This document shows, piece by piece, positions 488 through 60,952 of a stretch of DNA of 64,000 nucleotides. This DNA comes from Lentibacillus sp. Marseille-P4043. GTDB lineage: Bacteria > Bacillota > Bacilli > Bacillales > Amphibacillaceae. The notes under the pieces were generated by a model. That model was given only the letters and a program-made list of their open reading frames with translations. It was not told the origin of the DNA and did no database searches. The stretch covers positions 1,623,168-1,687,167 of the forward strand of contig NZ_LT984884.1 of NCBI RefSeq assembly GCF_900258515.1. Reading direction: 5' to 3'. Position 1 is the stretch's first letter, and each line of letters opens with the position of its first letter. Position numbers and translations under genes: made by a program.

Positions 488-576
488 GGGACAAGAGACC
501 TGTCCCCGCGTCCCAGCTCAAACTTAAAGCCCCGTCTGAATATGGCGCTGGGACAAGGAACCTGTCCCCATGTCCC
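488..576. repeat. REPIN-like repeat locus 1 (two units, same orientation)
   Basis: Two 27-nt units at 488-514 and 550-576, both of the right-hand form (GGGACAAG..ACCTGTCCCC..GTCCC), separated by 35 nt. Unlike most loci the units are in direct rather than inverted orientation, so this may be a rearranged pair. Confidence 0.9.
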
Positions 577-7212: not shown

Positions 7213-7239
7213 GGGACATGGGGACAGGTTCCTTGTCCC
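7213..7239. repeat. REPIN-like repeat locus 2 (single left unit)
   Basis: A lone 27-nt left-form unit (GGGACATGGGGACAGG then TTCCTTGTCCC), 3 nt after the nanK stop, without an inverted partner nearby. Confidence 0.85.
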
Positions 7240-8984: not shown

Positions 8985-9093
8985 GGGACATGGGCGGTCA
9001 CGGTGGGACATGGGGACAGGTTTGTTGTCCCGGCTGAGATTGTCGGAGTGATGCGGGATAGAGGGTGGGACGCGGGACCTGTCCCCATGTCCC
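8985..9093. repeat. REPIN-like repeat locus 4
   Basis: A left unit at 9005-9031 and a right unit at 9067-9093 are separated by 35 nt. A broken left unit (GGGACATGGG) precedes at 8985, 20 nt upstream. Confidence 0.9.
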
Positions 9094-15414: not shown

Positions 15415-15502
15415 GGGACATGGGGACAGGTTAATTGTCCCGGCTGGAAATCGCATGGATACAGGGTTTCAGGGTGGGACGCGGGACCTGTCCCCATGTC
15501 CC
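15415..15502. repeat. REPIN-like repeat locus 5
   Basis: Left unit 15415-15441 and right unit 15476-15502 with a 34-nt spacer, placed between two convergent genes and ending 2 nt before the stop of the AEC transporter. Confidence 0.9.
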
Positions 15503-16448: not shown

Positions 16449-16559
16449 GGGACATGGGGACAGGTTTGTTGTCCCAGCTCTAGTGGATGCAAGAACCAAA
16501 GCGTAGTCTGCTCTGATGGAGGGAAGCCTAGTGGGACAAGAAACCTGTCCCTATGTCCC
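16449..16559. repeat. REPIN-like repeat locus 6 (long spacer)
   Basis: Left unit 16449-16475 and right unit 16533-16559 with a 57-nt spacer. Confidence 0.9.
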
Positions 16560-21312: not shown

Positions 21313-21843
21313 TGCTGTAATTTGGCAGTGGAATGAGTTGTTTTCTGTATTTATAACATGAACCTTAATCGGATAGATGGTCTTGATAATAGTGATGTTT
21401 TACTAGGAAGTATGGGACTCCAATAAGTGGAAGTGTTAATCAAATGAAATGCGGGGTTGGAAAATTTGTTGTAAACATGCGTTCGATCACACTTAATTCG
21501 TACTGTTTTCCCGCAAAATTTTTCCTGATACGAATTATTTAGTACTTTTGAAGTGAAAGGAGGAATAATTATAAATAGAAAGAGGTAACTGGGGGGCGGT
21601 ATGGATGGTTTAAATCATTTGTGACTTTGAGGCGGGGATAGGGTACTGTTACAATCATTTTTATAGTGGCTTTTTATGAAATACATAACATAGGATCTTC
21701 CTGGAGACATAACGAAGAATGGAAGTAATGAATGAGGAAAAACTAAAATATGAACAATATCGGAAATGGTGATTGGCAGTGCTCACTATTTTGGACAAAG
21801 ATCCTGTCGCTTTGTCCCTCAATTTATGCAAGGGGGGATAGTT
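21313..21843. other. Gene-poor interval with one decayed repeat unit
   Basis: No convincing gene. At about 21793-21819, GGACAAAGATCCTGTC and TTTGTCCC look like a decayed right-form unit of the GGGACA family. An AGGAGG at 21560-21566 has no useful frame after it. Otherwise nothing recognisable. Confidence 0.5.
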
Positions 21844-22695: not shown

Positions 22696-23011
22696 GGGAC
22701 ACGGGGACAGGTTGAGGTCACTGAAAAATCCAGTTTACAAAAATGAAGAGCATACTAAACACAATATATAGATGCTTACATTTAACAACTTCACTAAATA
22801 TAGTGGTTTGTTCAATGTGACTTTTTAAAGTGATTACTTTTTCAGTGGCCTCGGACAGGTTAGGTGTCCCACTCTGTTGGTATATTAGGACGATTGACCT
22901 GTCTACGTTTTCCGCCACTAACTAACTGGGACAAGAGACCTGTCCCCGCGTCCCGCCCTGTACCCCATGTCTTCCGCACCTTTGTTTGGGAGGAAACTGT
23001 CCCCATGTCCC
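22696..23011. repeat. REPIN-like repeat locus 7 (interrupted by MITE copy 2)
   Basis: A left unit starts at 22696, is split by the MITE and resumes at 22853-22870. After a 57-nt spacer comes a right unit (22928-22954), then a decayed right unit (22988-23011). With the insertion and its 9-bp duplication removed, this is a normal long-spacer pair. Confidence 0.85.
22714..22852 (+). mobile_element. 139-bp MITE-like element, copy 2, inserted in a repeat unit
   Basis: Ends GAGGTCACTGAAAAA and TTTTTCAGTGGCCTC; interior aligned along its whole length with copy 1. The flanking GGACAGGTT (22705-22713 and 22853-22861) is a 9-bp target duplication. It is the reverse complement of the duplication at copy 1, so both copies hit the same point of the same repeat unit. 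Confidence 0.85.
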
Positions 23012-24803: not shown

Positions 24804-24953
24804 GGGACATGGGGACAGGTTAGTTGTCCCACCCCTAAACCCACGTTTACCGGGGGATTGCGCTGGGACAACTAACCTGTCCCTATGTCCCAAGCTACAC
24901 CCCGCGCCACTCCGGCAAATCAGGCTGGGACAAGAAACCTGTCCCCATGTCCC
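24804..24953. repeat. REPIN-like repeat locus 8 (three units)
   Basis: Left 24804-24830, right 24865-24891 and right 24927-24953, with spacers of 34 and 35 nt. The last unit forms the 3' end of the LysR reading frame on the minus strand. Confidence 0.92.
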
Positions 24954-28614: not shown

Positions 28615-28620
28615 GACAGT

Positions 28621-28709
28621 GGGACATGGGGACAGGTTAGTTGTCCCGGTCCGGTTTGGCGGTGTGGCGCGGGTTTGCGCGTGGGACAAGAGACCTGTCC
28701 CCACGTCCC
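28621..28709. repeat. REPIN-like repeat locus 9
   Basis: Left 28621-28647 and right 28683-28709, 35-nt spacer, inserted between hutU and the M20 hydrolase gene in the same transcription direction. Confidence 0.92.
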
Positions 28710-28759: not shown

Positions 28760-30046
28760 TTGCGAGAGAAGTTGTTGAAGGATTATGATGAGGCTTTTGA
28801 CTATGATGGCGTTTCTGGAAAACGGTTGGCTTCGAGGTTGGACGAGTTGGCTCAAATTGGATTGACGAAGGATAATGGCTCAAATCGTCCAGGTTTTTCG
28901 AGGGAAGAAAAGGAAGCCAGGGAGAAGGTGTCTGGCTGGATGCGGGAGGCAGGCTTGGAGGTCCATGAAGATGGGGCCGGAAATATTTTGGGTAGAATGG
29001 AAGGCAAAAACAATAAACTGCCGGCAATTATGAGTGGGTCCCATGTTGATAGTGTACCGAATGGCGGGCATTTTGATGGGGTACTCGGTGTGTTAGCTGC
29101 ACTGGAGGTTGTGGAAGCGTGGAATGCAACTGGTCACCAACCGGAAAAGCCGTTTGAGGTGGTTATTTTTACGGATGAAGAAGGTGCCCGTTTTAATGGT
29201 GGTTTAAACGGCAGTGAGGCAATGATTGGAAAAGGTGATATGGACAAAAAGTTACAACTCGTTGATAAGGATGGCATGCGTTTCGCTGAGGTTTTGGCGG
29301 ATGTAGATCTTAGTGTCGACGGTTATCAAGCGGCAAAACGAAACATGGATGAACTTGATCTATTTGTTGAGGTACATATTGAGCAAGGAAAACGACTGGA
29401 AAAAGAAAATTTACCGTGTGGAATCGTAACAGGGATTGCAGGCCCGTGTTGGTTAGAGTTCACCATATTAGGTGAAGCAGGGCATGCCGGAAACACGCCG
29501 ATGGATGACCGACACGATGCGCTCGTTGCTGCAAGTGAATTTATTTTTGAGATTAATAAGCTGCCGCGCCAAATAAATGATTCCGCTGTTGCGACGGTGG
29601 GGAGGCAATTTGTCGAACCGAATGGAGTGAATGTCATACCAGGCCAAGTTAAGTTTTACGTTGACATTCGCGATATTCATCGTGTGACAAGGGATCAATT
29701 GGTGGACCGTGTGTTGACTTTGGGTGAAAAAATTGCAGATAAACATCACGTTGAGGTGGAGTACACGGAGAAAATGCGAGTGGAGCCAGTTCCTATTAAA
29801 GAAGAAATACAACAAATTTTAGAGCATTCCTTCCAAGAAAAAGGAATCAGACCCTACAAACTGTCAAGCGGTGCCGGACATGACGCAATGATTATCGGCG
29901 AAAAACTCCCCATTGCCATGCTGTTTGTCCGAAGCAAAGCAGGCATCAGCCACAACCCAGCAGAATGGTCCAACCTGAACGACTGCATCCAAACCGTACA
30001 CACACTAAAAACCTTTATAGAAAAGTGGGACATGGGGACAGGTTAA
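28760..30046 (+). CDS. M20 family Zn-dependent amidohydrolase (N-carbamoyl-amino acid hydrolase type)
   Basis: A 428-residue di-zinc hydrolase of the M20 hydantoinase/carbamoylase group. Zinc-site motifs are MSGSHVDSVPNGGHFDGVLG and TDEEGARFNGG, then EVHIEQGKRLE, and a late GAGHDAMI plus SHNPAEW. Members hydrolyse N-carbamoyl amino acids, allantoate or ureidoglycolate. Its place behind hutU suggests a histidine-related or other nitrogen role. Start TTG at 28760, 7 nt after GGAGAGGTG. The last residues (KWDMGTG and the stop) come from a repeat unit. Confidence 0.87.
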   Translation: MREKLLKDYDEAFDYDGVSGKRLASRLDELAQIGLTKDNGSNRPGFSREEKEAREKVSGWMREAGLEVHEDGAGNILGRMEGKNNKLPAIMSGSHVDSVPNGGHFDGVLGVLAALEVVEAWNATGHQPEKPFEVVIFTDEEGARFNGGLNGSEAMIGKGDMDKKLQLVDKDGMRFAEVLADVDLSVDGYQAAKRNMDELDLFVEVHIEQGKRLEKENLPCGIVTGIAGPCWLEFTILGEAGHAGNTPMDDRHDALVAASEFIFEINKLPRQINDSAVATVGRQFVEPNGVNVIPGQVKFYVDIRDIHRVTRDQLVDRVLTLGEKIADKHHVEVEYTEKMRVEPVPIKEEIQQILEHSFQEKGIRPYKLSSGAGHDAMIIGEKLPIAMLFVRSKAGISHNPAEWSNLNDCIQTVHTLKTFIEKWDMGTG

Positions 30047-30115
30047 CTGTCCCAGTCCAAAATGCCGTAGTGGCGTTGGTTAGAGGGTGGGACAAGAAAC
30101 CTGTCCCCACGTCCC
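30027..30115. repeat. REPIN-like repeat locus 10
   Basis: Left 30027-30053 and right 30089-30115, 35-nt spacer. The left unit supplies the terminal codons and stop of the M20 hydrolase. Confidence 0.92.
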
Positions 30116-30864: not shown

Positions 30865-31626
30865 ATGACAAGAATACCTAGAAGAAAAAGTACGAACGGT
30901 ATATATCACATCATGCTGCGAGGAATTAATAGACAAACCATTTTTGAAGATGATGAAGACAAGTTAAGGCTTTTATCAACAATTAAGAGATTCAAAGGAA
31001 AGGATAGCTTTGAACTCTTTGCTTACTGTTTGATGGATAATCACATTCATCTGTTAATAAAAGAGGCGGAGGAATCGATTTCGAAAACAATCCAAAGAAT
31101 CAGTGCAAGTTATGTGTATTGGTACAACAACAAATATGAACGCTTTGGGCATTTGTTTCAGGAAAGGTTCAAAAGTGAAAATGTGGACACGATTGCTTAT
31201 TTCTTCACCGTTTTGCGATATATCCATCAAAACCCCGTCAAGGCCGGAATAGCAAATAATGCTTTTGCGTGTGAATGGACGAGCATACATGAGTATTACG
31301 GCCGCGCTAATTTAGTTACTGTTGATTTCGTGTTCCAATTGATCTCCCCCAACAGAAATAAAGCCACCCAATTGTTTACCGAATACATGTTAGCAACAAA
31401 TGATGATGAATGTCTGGACAATGATGTGAAAGTGAAGCGATCAGATAGCGAAGTCAAGCGGCATCTAGCAAACTTAGGGATTCCCAATAATACCGTTCTG
31501 CAGCAGATGGAAAAACAAAAAAGAAATAAAATCATCTCAGAACTCAGAGGATTAGAAGGCATAACAATCAGACAACTAGCCAGAATAACAGGCATATCCA
31601 AAAGCGTCATCCACCGCATCCAATAG
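30865..31626 (+). CDS. REP-associated tyrosine transposase (RAYT, Y1/IS200-like)
   Basis: A 253-residue HUH single-strand transposase. The histidine pair is in MDNHIHLL (His60, His62) and the nucleophile Tyr119 is in RYIHQNPVKAG, both hallmarks of TnpA-REP proteins. A C-terminal helix-turn-helix (GITIRQLARITGISKSVIHRI) is an addition found in many RAYTs. Family knowledge: RAYTs cut and join REP/REPIN hairpins in single-stranded DNA and are single-copy genes flanked by REPs. Here a repeat pair begins 4 nt after the stop and a near-identical pair lies 0.9 kb on. No IS-type ends of its own were seen. Probable mobiliser of the GGGACA family. Confidence 0.9.
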   Translation: MTRIPRRKSTNGIYHIMLRGINRQTIFEDDEDKLRLLSTIKRFKGKDSFELFAYCLMDNHIHLLIKEAEESISKTIQRISASYVYWYNNKYERFGHLFQERFKSENVDTIAYFFTVLRYIHQNPVKAGIANNAFACEWTSIHEYYGRANLVTVDFVFQLISPNRNKATQLFTEYMLATNDDECLDNDVKVKRSDSEVKRHLANLGIPNNTVLQQMEKQKRNKIISELRGLEGITIRQLARITGISKSVIHRIQ

Positions 31627-31630
31627 AGGC

Positions 31631-31718
31631 GGGACATGGGGACAGGTTAGCTGTCCCAGCCGCCAAGCCTGCCACTACGCCAATTCCGCCTGGGACAAGG
31701 AACCTGTCCCCATGTCCC
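31631..31718. repeat. REPIN-like repeat locus 11, abutting the RAYT gene
   Basis: Left 31631-31657 and right 31692-31718, 34-nt spacer. It differs from locus 12 at only about three of 88 positions. Confidence 0.93.
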
Positions 31719-32647: not shown

Positions 32648-32735
32648 GGGACGTGGGGACAGGTTAGCTGTCCCAGCCGCCAAGCCTGCCACTACGCCAA
32701 TTTCGTCTGGGACAAGGAACCTGTCCCCATGTCCC
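32648..32735. repeat. REPIN-like repeat locus 12
   Basis: Left 32648-32674 and right 32709-32735, 34-nt spacer; near-identical to locus 11 on the other side of the FNR-like gene. Confidence 0.93.
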
Positions 32736-32840
32736 ACTGTTGCAGTTGTCACGGCCTGTCTTCTAATCTCTTAAGGCGCACAAAAAATTCGTCCTGGGCA
32801 TAAATTGAGAGTGAATGAAATAGCAGGAGGTTATATAACA

Positions 32841-33392
32841 ATGTATCCATATATGTATTATCCGTATTTAATGTATTATCCGTATTTAATGTATTATCCG
32901 TATTTAATGTATTATCCAGTAAGGAATGAAGCGGGGCGGGCATATGCGGAAATAAGGGGCAGTGAGCTAGCACCCAATTTAAGAGGTTATGTTACATTTA
33001 CGGATGTCCCGCATGGTGCGGAGGTATCGGTTGAATTATTCGGATTGCCAGATTATAAGCCGGCAGTGGGAAATCAAGCACCCGTAGGACCGCATGGATT
33101 TCATATTCATGAAAATGGGGATTGTGGAGTTGGCGATAAGACAGACCCTTTCAAACAGGCAGGAGGTCATTGGAATCCTAAAAATCAGCCACATGGCCAT
33201 CATCCGGGTGATTTTCCAGTTCTGTTTTCCAATAATGGGTATACAAGAATGTCCTTTTTCACGGATAGATTCAAAAGTAAAGATGTGATCGGAAAGTCAG
33301 TAATCGTTCATCAAAATCCAGATGATTACCGATCACAACCATCAGGAAACGCCGGAAAACGAATAGGCTGCGGTGTCATTAGGGGGTATTAA
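32841..33392 (+). CDS. Cu/Zn superoxide dismutase family protein with tyrosine-rich N-terminus
   Basis: A 183-residue protein with the copper and zinc ligands of Cu/Zn SOD: His88 and His90 in GFHIHENGDC, His110 in GGHWNPK, the HGHHPGD block (118-124) and His157 in VIVHQNPDDY, plus Cys95 and Cys177 for the disulfide. The first ~26 residues are a repeat of MYYPYL units, from an 18-bp DNA repeat, instead of a signal peptide. This recalls tyrosine-rich spore coat proteins, but a coat role is conjecture. ATG at 32841 lies downstream of AGCAGGAGG. Confidence 0.88.
   Translation: MYPYMYYPYLMYYPYLMYYPYLMYYPVRNEAGRAYAEIRGSELAPNLRGYVTFTDVPHGAEVSVELFGLPDYKPAVGNQAPVGPHGFHIHENGDCGVGDKTDPFKQAGGHWNPKNQPHGHHPGDFPVLFSNNGYTRMSFFTDRFKSKDVIGKSVIVHQNPDDYRSQPSGNAGKRIGCGVIRGY
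32853..32917 (+). repeat. 18-bp in-frame tandem repeat in the SOD gene
   Basis: ATGTATTATCCGTATTTA occurs three times head to tail (32853, 32871, 32889) plus a partial fourth copy of 11 bases, encoding MYYPYL units. Perfect copies suggest variable length by slippage. Confidence 0.92.
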
Positions 33393-33395
33393 ATT

Positions 33396-33545
33396 GAGAC
33401 ATGGGGACAGGTTAGGTGTCCCACCCGCCAAACGCGCCATGACGCCAATCTTGCCTGGGACAAGGAACCTGTCCCCGCGTCCCATCGCACAACCCGCGCC
33501 CCGCCTGGCACAAGGCCTGGGACAAGAAACCTGTCCCCATGTCCC
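33396..33545. repeat. REPIN-like repeat locus 13 (three units)
   Basis: Left 33396-33422 (first bases GAGACATG), right 33457-33483 and right 33519-33545; spacers 34 and 35 nt. Lies between the convergent SOD and reductase genes. Confidence 0.9.
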
Positions 33546-46047: not shown

Positions 46048-46342
46048 GGGACATGGGGACAGTGGGACATGGGGACAGGATCCTTGTCCCAGCCTAAGCG
46101 AAGTCGCGAGAGCAATCGTGACGGGCACTTGAGCCGATTGAGGAAGTGGGACATGGGGACAGGATCCTTGTCCCAGCTCAAGCAAAGTTGCGAAGGCCAT
46201 CGTGACGGGCACTTGATCCGATCGAGGAAGTGGGACATGGGGACAGGATCCTTGTCCCAGCTCAAGCAAAGTTGCGAAGGCCATCGTGACGGGCACTTGA
46301 TCCGATCGAGGAAGTGGGACGCGGAACCTGTCCCCACGTCCC
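46048..46342. repeat. REPIN-like repeat locus 14: amplified 84-bp array
   Basis: Left units at 46064, 46148 and 46232 and a closing right unit at 46316-46342 lie exactly 84 bp apart, all with 57-nt spacers. A broken left unit precedes at 46048. The second and third spacers look almost identical, pointing to recent tandem amplification. Confidence 0.95.
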
Positions 46343-48458: not shown

Positions 48459-48568
48459 GGGACATGGGGACAGGTCCCTTGTCCCGGTAGGCAAAATGGC
48501 GTGAGACTTGATCTCATGCGCTGCTGACAATGTGATGAAGTGGGACGCGGGACCTGTCCCCACGTCCC
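48459..48568. repeat. REPIN-like repeat locus 15 (long spacer)
   Basis: Left 48459-48485 and right 48542-48568; 56-nt spacer holding an internal hairpin (GCGTGAGA..TCTCATGC). Spacer shared with locus 16. Confidence 0.93.
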
Positions 48569-49390: not shown

Positions 49391-49501
49391 GGGACATGGG
49401 GACAGGTCCCTTGTCCCAGCAGACAAAATGGCGTGAGACTTGATCTCATGCGGGATAGACGATTATAACAAAGTGGGACGCGGAACCTGTCCCCATGTCC
49501 C
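49391..49501. repeat. REPIN-like repeat locus 16 (long spacer)
   Basis: Left 49391-49417 and right 49475-49501; 57-nt spacer close to that of locus 15, so the two pairs bracketing the hydratase gene are recent relatives. Confidence 0.93.
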
Positions 49502-50605: not shown

Positions 50606-50694
50606 GGGACATGGGGACAGGTTAGTTGTCCCAGTGTCTTTCTCAACAGGGGCATAGGGTTGCGCGTGGGACAAGAAACCTGACCCCATGTCCC
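50606..50694. repeat. REPIN-like repeat locus 17, in the pdh leader
   Basis: Left 50606-50632 and right 50668-50694 (one mismatch), 35-nt spacer. It lies between the operator and the start codon, so its hairpins would be part of the mRNA leader. Confidence 0.92.
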
Positions 50695-57283: not shown

Positions 57284-57372
57284 GGGACATGGGGACAGGT
57301 TAGTTGTCCCAGCCTGAAATGCCGTAGTGATGCGTGATAGCGGGTGGGACGCGGAACCTGTCCCCACGTCCC
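57284..57372. repeat. REPIN-like repeat locus 18
   Basis: Left 57284-57310 and right 57346-57372, 35-nt spacer. Confidence 0.93.
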
Positions 57373-58636: not shown

Positions 58637-58725
58637 GGGACATGGGGACAGGTTTGTTGTCCCACCCTCTAACCCGCGCCACTACGCTAAATCAGGCTGG
58701 GACAACAAACCTGTCCCCACGTCCC
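58637..58725. repeat. REPIN-like repeat locus 19
   Basis: Left 58637-58663 and right 58699-58725, 35-nt spacer. Its right edge lies about 10 nt from the broken 5' end of the PTS remnant. Confidence 0.93.
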
Positions 58726-59652: not shown

Positions 59653-59741
59653 GGGACATGGGGACAGGTCCCTTGTCCCACCTCCAACCCCACGCCACTC
59701 CGGCAAATTGGACTGGGACAGTAAACCTGTCCCCACGTCCC
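59653..59741. repeat. REPIN-like repeat locus 20
   Basis: Left 59653-59679 and right 59715-59741, 35-nt spacer, ending 36 nt before the manA start. Confidence 0.93.
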
Positions 59742-60739: not shown

Positions 60740-60952
60740 GGGACATGGGGACAGGTTCCTTGTCCCGTCCTCGATCCCGCACCACTCCGCTATCCTTCAG
60801 TGGGACAACGAACCTGTCCCCGCGTCCCACCCTCAAACCCACGTCACTCCGTCATCCTTCAGTGGGACATGGGGACAGGTCCCTCGTCCCACTCTCTATC
60901 CCGCGCCACTCCGCCAAATTAGACTGGGACAACAAACCTGTCCCCATGTCCC
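60740..60952. repeat. REPIN-like repeat locus 21 (two tandem pairs)
   Basis: Left 60740, right 60802, left 60864, right 60926-60952: four units exactly 62 bp apart with three 35-nt spacers. Confidence 0.94.

Follow-up and report, generated by a model that had tools for sequence, protein, structure and literature searches.

A gene for a domesticated RAYT-like transposase in Lentibacillus sp. Marseille-P4043 lies in a cloud of short hairpin repeats, which it appears to copy to nearby places. We consider it probable that gene and repeats together make up a REPIN-RAYT-like system in which the hairpin loop carries a tag, the RAYT acts as mobilizer in trans and the repeats spread by local transposition that keeps the strand. 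Repeats and gene are associated across genomes, the hairpin has a constant geometry and a covarying stem, copies cluster around the gene, and neighbouring copies resemble each other and share their orientation. The features found in the window (the whole 64,000-nt stretch of DNA analysed) are collected in the table. The source genome of the window is denoted G000; other G numbers are family genomes, and L numbers are loci in named genome records.

Table. Features of the RAYT gene and of the repeats, in window coordinates.
Feature	Position	Strand	Remarks
Two single units on the same strand	488..576	-	488-514 and 550-576
Single unit	7213..7239	+	
REPIN, 89 bp	9005..9093	+	
REPIN, 88 bp	15415..15502	+	
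REPIN, long class, 111 bp	16449..16559	+	
Single unit	22928..22954	-	
REPIN, 88 bp	24804..24891	+	Extra single unit 24927-24953
REPIN, 89 bp	28621..28709	+	6 nt past hutU stop
REPIN, 89 bp	30027..30115	+	Overlaps 3' end of ORF 28760-30046
RAYT/TIRYT-like HUH-Y1 transposase, 253 aa	30865..31626	+	Y1_Tnp profile match, orthologue alignment, AF2 model
RAYT catalytic residues	His60 31042-31044, His62 31048-31050, Tyr119 31219-31221	+	Invariant in alignment
RAYT C-terminal helix-turn-helix domain	31513..31617	+	HTH_24 weak match, model helices, conservation
REPIN, two 27-nt units, 88 bp	31631..31718	+	4 nt past RAYT stop
27-nt unit	31631..31657	+	Stem 31631-31636 with 31652-31657; loop tag GGGGACAGG 31638-31646; from geometry and covariation
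REPIN	32648..32735	+	3 of 88 bases off 31631-31718, same orientation, unrelated flanks
REPIN, 88 bp	33396..33483	+	Extra single unit 33519-33545
Tandem array of half-elements	about 46064..46342	+	Three + units 84 bp apart, last one paired with a - unit as 111-bp REPIN (46232-46342)
REPIN, long class, 110 bp	48459..48568	+	
REPIN, long class, 111 bp	49391..49501	+	Spacer related to that of 48459 element
REPIN, 89 bp	50606..50694	+	
REPIN, 89 bp	57284..57372	+	
REPIN, 89 bp	58637..58725	+	Spacer close to that of 60864 element
REPIN, 89 bp	59653..59741	+	
REPIN, 89 bp	60740..60828	+	
REPIN, 89 bp	60864..60952	+	

The RAYT protein scores 63.4 bits against the Y1_Tnp profile (cut-off 23) and 71 bits against NCBIfam REP_Tyr_transpos, which is under the cut-off of 80. 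Its closest protein, with 89% identity, is from Virgibacillus sp. FSP13. The HUH residues and the tyrosine are unchanged in all 28 aligned orthologues (this RAYT included; the other 27 are 51-68% identical to it), and the protein thus has the intact catalytic residues of an HUH-Y1 transposase that mark REPIN-RAYT systems. The Y1 core is followed by a C-terminal helix-turn-helix (HTH), as in TIRYTs and RAYT subclass 2.1.2: the match to HTH_24 (E 2.5e-4) is just below the Pfam cut-off, the AlphaFold2 model (mean pLDDT 88.5) places the HTH helices at residues 217-228, 235-242 and 246-251, and the region is conserved among the aligned orthologues. The best PDB match of the model is 4er8 (E 9.8e-9; TM 0.75 by target length, 0.50 by query length), a complex of the E. 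coli RAYT with its REP hairpin, and 4er8 was also the only solved structure at E <=0.01 in the profile search.

G000 has five Y1 matches, of which the RAYT is one, and the genome search found the orthologous RAYT gene in single copy. Two further Y1 genes outside the window, at G000:C1:824075-824431 and 1891838-1892194, have equal scores of 130.2 bits and a 136-aa open frame; they are probably copies of a true IS200-type element. A distant Y1 relative with 29% identity, at G000:C1:1586953-1587408, has three TGA codons in its reading frame.

The initial annotation had counted about 48 repeat copies at 21 loci, and our count comes close. The 16-mer GGGACATGGGGACAGG with at most 3 mismatches gives 51 matches in the window (shuffled mean 0.19, maximum 2), at 24 places when grouped within 200 bp; among the matches, the one at 46056 is an overlap artefact and the one at 21803 (3 mismatches) is weak. 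By the 27-nt definition given below the window holds 44 units. Exact copies of the 16-mer number 115 in G000 (69 on the + strand and 46 on the - strand), with none for the reversed control. The pair reported 4 nt past the RAYT stop is indeed there (31631-31718 after the ORF 30865-31626), and so is the near-identity of the pairs at 31631 and 32648, which differ at 3 of 88 bases and have differing outer flanks. Placement almost entirely between genes had also been reported; by a crude ORF call, this holds for most of the length of 41 of the 49 pairs found between 1.40 and 1.80 Mb. A repeat family that adjoins the RAYT and is dispersed, mostly between genes, is a feature of REPIN-RAYT systems. 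In 22 of 51 cases (two of these being overlaps) a gene 3' end is no more than 15 bp away, as compared with 1 of 42 non-overlapping cases for gene 5' ends. At window 32805-33392 there is also a Cu/Zn superoxide dismutase ORF with about three repeats of an 18-bp stretch in its 5' part, giving a tyrosine- and proline-rich reading.

We defined the repeat unit from the flanks of 30 orthologues and from 80 loci, the best 80 of a larger number obtained with alignment A1 against named genome records. The unit is a 27-nt hairpin in which positions 1-6 pair with 22-27 and the word GGG[AT]CAG occupies 9-15. The surroundings of these best 80 loci yielded 153 units, and shuffled sequence 10. Among L066-L094 (46-63% identity), 25 of 29 loci have a unit no farther than 500 bp from the gene, as do 3 of the 51 loci L095-L145. 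Most stems are GGGACA/TGTCCC; others are GGGCCA/TGGCCC, GAACCG/CGGTTC, GAAACG/CGTTTC and TTACAC/GTGTAA. Covariation was assessed in 99 units, one per locus, picked by either tag and by nearness to the gene, blind to pairing. The outer stem (1-6 with 22-27) is paired in 78.8% of cells, compared with 27-47% when one side is slid; it has 140 double-change cells against 50 in shuffled data, and a covariation score of 0.573 against 0.216. At least five of the six pairs form in 65 of the 99 units, and fewer in the other 34. Read from these sequences, the stem varies between species yet stays complementary, and the tag in the loop is constant, or nearly so, within a RAYT group.

An earlier fold had paired the second GGGACA with TGTCCC; we revise this, the conserved stem being the first GGGACA with TGTCCC, where alone covariation is seen. 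The functional hairpin might still be the inner one, with the first GGGACATG as a 5' guide, and the inner helix is the minimum-energy fold of the G000 unit (-7.4 kcal/mol, z -4.0); across species, however, it has one double-change cell against 5.1 in shuffled data, compared with the 140 against 50 of the outer helix, and we regard this reading as unlikely. At the foot of the outer hairpin, the two bases outside the unit favour GT in G000 (54 of 92 and 62 of 92), so that GTGG can be read there. These positions are unconserved around the RAYTs of other genomes, and the conserved GTAG/GTGG of REPIN-RAYT systems was not found at the hairpin foot. The initial annotation had named a different flanking repeat at the RAYT elsewhere as evidence against the link between the two. 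Some orthologues do have a different stem beside them, but the geometry and the loop tag are unchanged, and genomes with a changed stem beside the RAYT carry copies of that changed form.

We counted the broad pattern GGGACNNNGGGWCAGR in 159 family genomes, taking as orthologous any RAYT of at least 50% identity, broken ones included. At least nine copies are present in 27 of 33 genomes with an orthologous RAYT and in 5 of 126 without (Fisher 7e-20, an optimistic value since the genomes are related). The within-genus comparison is the better control: in all nine genera that have both kinds of genome, mean copy number is higher with the RAYT. Copy number thus follows RAYT presence, a relation that the initial annotation had suggested as a check, and the repeat is not equally abundant in relatives without the gene, the same-genus genomes G057 and G058, in which no RAYT match was found, having 10 and 1 copies against 174 in G000. 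The five genomes with at least nine A-tag copies and no orthologous RAYT are G054, G057, G083, G094 and G149; RAYT remnants were found in G054 and G083 only. Six genomes with an A RAYT have fewer than nine copies of GGGACNNNGGGWCAGR, and in three of these (G044, G082 and G097) the stem beside the RAYT is changed; changed-stem copies number 22 in G044, 34 in G097 and 2 in G082, and 18 in G086, whose RAYT is broken. Changed-stem copies also occur in two genomes without an orthologous RAYT, G067 (13) and G098 (5). The highest GGGACNNNGGGWCAGR count (194) is that of G016, whose RAYT reads one in-frame TGA and may have been stopped recently.

More distant RAYTs (group B, 41-51% identity) have units of the same 27-nt geometry with GGGACGG in place of GGGACAG. 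When L090-L145 of the best 80 loci (56 loci) were searched, with GGGACGT allowed too, paired units with the B word stood within 500 bp at 41. At least nine copies of GGGGACGGTTCT were found in 8 of the 13 family genomes with a RAYT of 42-46% identity (one broken) and in 1 of the 146 without, out of the same 159; the other 5 of the 13 have fewer. One genome in which no B RAYT was found, G081, carries 40 copies of the B tag. G027 has both RAYTs. Counted to a distance of 15 kb, the A RAYT has near it 7 of the 15 A copies and none of the B copies, and the B RAYT has 5 of the 22 B copies and none of the A copies (p 0.0013). In a RAYT tree of 77 rows, 35 of 36 A-tagged rows are on one branch with support 100/99; these 36 are the 28 of A1 and eight of ten listed named loci (the other two have internal stops), and the A-tagged L091, L094 and L099 (45-46% identity) were left out. 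Because the tree has no root, B is not necessarily a clade. A clean split of the tags into two clades was rejected, since the A-tagged L089, from a Negativicutes MAG, has its place beside a B-tagged RAYT; a switch of tag is possible there. Four alignment columns (80, 139, 175 and 201 in the numbering of the G000 RAYT) differ consistently between A- and B-tag RAYTs at the thresholds used.

The 400 kb of G000 examined for pairing contain 49 inverted pairs, 43 of 88-89 bp, five of 110-111 bp and one of 100 bp. Their 34-35 nt spacers are related, with a smallest edit distance of 0 for tandem copies and 2 elsewhere, compared with 14 for shuffled spacers. By these discrete lengths and copied spacers the inverted pair is the copied unit in G000, as in REPIN-RAYT systems; pair lengths vary widely in most other genomes. 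The 20 kb around a group B RAYT in Mesobacillus subterraneus L130 contain 36 units and nine inverted pairs, five of them 79 bp long. At the ends of the pairs we found no target duplication of 4-8 bases (0 matches), and matches of 2 bases (3 against 2.5 expected) and 3 bases (2 against 1.6) are near expectation. IS200/IS605 elements are not known to make target duplications. No empty sites were found in two same-genus genomes, in which the stretches compared share only the hut operon and one 236-bp match with the window; homology to these genomes stops at the hutU stop and REPIN start (window 28616-28621).

The units beside the RAYT could instead be terminal inverted repeats (TIRs): the RAYT would then belong to an autonomous TIRtron or IS, and the dispersed pairs would be MITEs derived from it by internal deletion. 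Many RAYT genes have units on both sides, and TIRs of this kind have been described for TIRYTs (PMC3733652). G000 has one orthologous gene copy against its 115 exact repeat copies, however, and no unit lies within 300 bp upstream of the RAYT here, so that this origin seems improbable.

Clustering of the repeats on the RAYT was tested in G000, G150 and G154, with copies within 500 bp taken as one locus. Within 50 kb of the RAYT are 28 of the 73 loci listed for G000, where a further 15 copies past 1.99 Mb stand outside the list; in G150 the count is 26 of 72 loci and in G154 9 of 39. Random placement of the gene reaches the observed clustering in 0.6%, 0.4% and 3.1% of cases respectively (combined rotation p 8e-5), and in 0.2% to 4.0% when the size of the counting interval is changed. 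The replication terminus does not seem to be the cause of the clusters: in G000 the dif-like site (2.88 Mb) is away from the RAYT (1.65 Mb), and so it is in G154 (2.24 Mb, with the RAYT at 3.88 Mb), although these sites have 3 mismatches each and the termini are therefore uncertain; no dif-like site was found in G150. Second dense clusters of units occur at G150:C1:3839388-3886983 and G154:C1:1179889-1232973, where no orthologous RAYT was found. At a guess, these are perhaps older sites of the RAYT gene.

Similarity among the G000 pairs is also local. Over 40 pairs, spacer similarity declines as the pairs lie farther apart (Mantel r 0.245, a value reached in 2 of 5000 permutations). For 19 of the 40, against 1.9 expected, the closest relative is among the two pairs lying nearest; for other pairs the closest relative is up to 249 kb off. 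An orientation scan covered 19 pieces of 15 genomes, with comparable pairs in 10 pieces of 9 genomes. Similar pairs are direct or inverted in the ratio 24/0 at less than 10 kb, 7/2 at 10-30 kb and 4/4 at 30 kb or more. Ten of the 24 close direct pairs involve the tandem block 1698285-1700675 of G000, and the other 14 comprise 12 in G000 and two in G154. Twenty further pieces added three direct and one inverted close pairs, all in M. subterraneus L130. It is thus mainly G000 that argues for local spread on the same strand, with weak support from other genomes.

Local recombination, gene conversion or segmental duplication, rather than transposition, might produce similar neighbouring pairs. The tandem block at G000:C1:1698285-1700675, with REPIN copies 432 bp apart and shared flanks, is of the kind expected, and replication-driven local amplification of REPINs has been proposed in E. 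coli (PMC8049555). Outside that block, however, the flanks of close pairs match at no more than 17 of 40 bases, save for the left side of 1751787/1755590 (25 of 40), and gene conversion would neither create copies at new sites nor explain the clustering on the RAYT; we regard this origin as unlikely. Very improbable is a host origin of the repeats, as terminators or mRNA 3'-end hairpins that arose or spread on their own, with the RAYT merely inserted among them: the hairpins are stable and often within 15 bp of gene 3' ends (the 22 of 51 distances above), but copy number tracks RAYT presence in nine of nine genera, the tag matches the kind of RAYT and the stem matches the RAYT flank of the same genome, and discrete lengths with related spacers mark copied elements.

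For the transposition that we favour, the mobile element would be the inverted pair of 27-nt units (REPIN), here mostly 88-89 or 110-111 bp long. Each unit folds into a hairpin whose stem of about 6 bp encloses a loop with the tag GGGGACAGG. The RAYT would be the acting protein and would read the loop tag, and the stem would mainly have to be a stem, free to drift by compensatory change. By analogy with IS200/IS605 and with E. coli TnpA-REP, the enzyme would cut and rejoin one strand of the single-stranded element. The single-stranded state would probably arise on the lagging-strand template, so that copies would tend to land a few kb away and on the same strand; short hops, a kept strand and no duplication are what we would expect of a single-strand transposase at the fork. 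Such hops could build the cloud of copies around the transposase gene, and surviving copies would be intergenic, often directly past stop codons. With local spread that keeps the strand, the RAYT would sit within an expanding cloud of its own copies, which would record its history. The initial annotation had called the system active or recently active, and the near-identical copies suggest that it may be so at present.

A wider proposition is that the HTH-bearing RAYTs of Firmicutes, which had been taken to be without REPs, own a distinct class of REP (a 27-nt hairpin with a loop word read by the enzyme and a free stem), which spreads by local single-strand transposition that keeps the strand; the chances for and against it seem to us evenly balanced. 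If true, a large HTH-bearing subclass of RAYTs would gain a substrate, and TIRYTs and RAYTs would come into one picture. There would also be a natural code: the kind of RAYT sets the tag word, the stem is free, and where a genome has both words each lies close to the matching RAYT. The proposition makes local one-strand jumps of RAYT copies at the replication fork testable.

The comparison with known systems refers to the portions of the cited papers available to us. Neither the 16-mer GGGACATGGGGACAGG nor its parts were found in the literature searched; by title and abstract we found no work on bacterial repeats with the tag words and none on RAYT repeats of Firmicutes, though Figure 9 of PMC3733652 may include a Firmicute. 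Two Geobacillus genome papers, as far as available, have RayT only as a counted COG name. Neither a cloud this wide nor local copies that keep the strand were found in the literature searched, in which subscription journals are partly covered.

With IS200/IS605 elements (IS608, ISDra2) the system shares the fold, a hairpin substrate and the lack of target duplication. It differs in that the orthologous gene is single-copy here, and pairs of about 90 bp are too short for a gene; we thus found no transposase gene inside a unit with several near-identical copies.

TIRYTs and TIRtrons were described in 2013 by Di Nocera and colleagues (PMC3733652) as RAYT-like genes between inverted repeats, some of the form GGGGWSAS; the repeat families are moderately abundant, many as dimers, and were called TIRs unrelated to REPs. 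That motif is matched by GGGGACAG here and by GGGGTCAG in several orthologues, but the group B tag GGGGACGG does not fit it, and many Firmicutes have here a single hairpin of fixed geometry, in which the loop bears the tag and the stem is free. Quentin and colleagues (PMC6006769) placed 20 of 26 TIRYTs in subclass 2.1, with a C-terminal HTH, and, in the portion available, found no REP-like sequences by subclass 2.1 genes. Our RAYT resembles subclass 2.1.2, reported without REPs, in a length near the median of 238, the C-terminal HTH, NHxH, FQ and 59 residues from the first histidine to the tyrosine. Its motifs are NHIH, FQ and YIHQNP, compared with the printed NHVH or NH[YF]H, FQ, and YIELNP or Y[IV]HLNP; the tyrosine motif YIHQNP reads like that of subclass 2.6 instead (PMC6006769). 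The repeats described here address the gap at subclass 2.1, being REP-like hairpins in which the loop holds the word and the foot does not have GTAG. A precedent for reading of the loop comes from the Stenotrophomonas and Marinomonas enzymes, for which loop positions are critical (PMC8266576).

REPIN-RAYT systems of Pseudomonas and E. coli (PMC3116915; PMC8049555) have in common with ours an HUH-Y1 enzyme, copied inverted pairs of short palindromes, intergenic placement and clusters beside the RAYT gene; such clusters were already known (PMC3116915). Here, as compared with the accounts available, the hairpin foot has no conserved GTAG/GTGG, the tag is in the loop, the enzyme has a C-terminal HTH, and the cloud around the RAYT measures some 100 kb or more, similar copies being close neighbours that share their orientation. 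The REPIN-RAYT reading of the initial annotation is therefore supported, but the RAYT resembles the HTH-bearing subclass and not the GTAG-reading RAYTs of gammaproteobacteria. As the system works like REPIN-RAYT without its GTAG feature, we file it as a variant of that system, apparently nearest to TIRYT and subclass 2.1.2.
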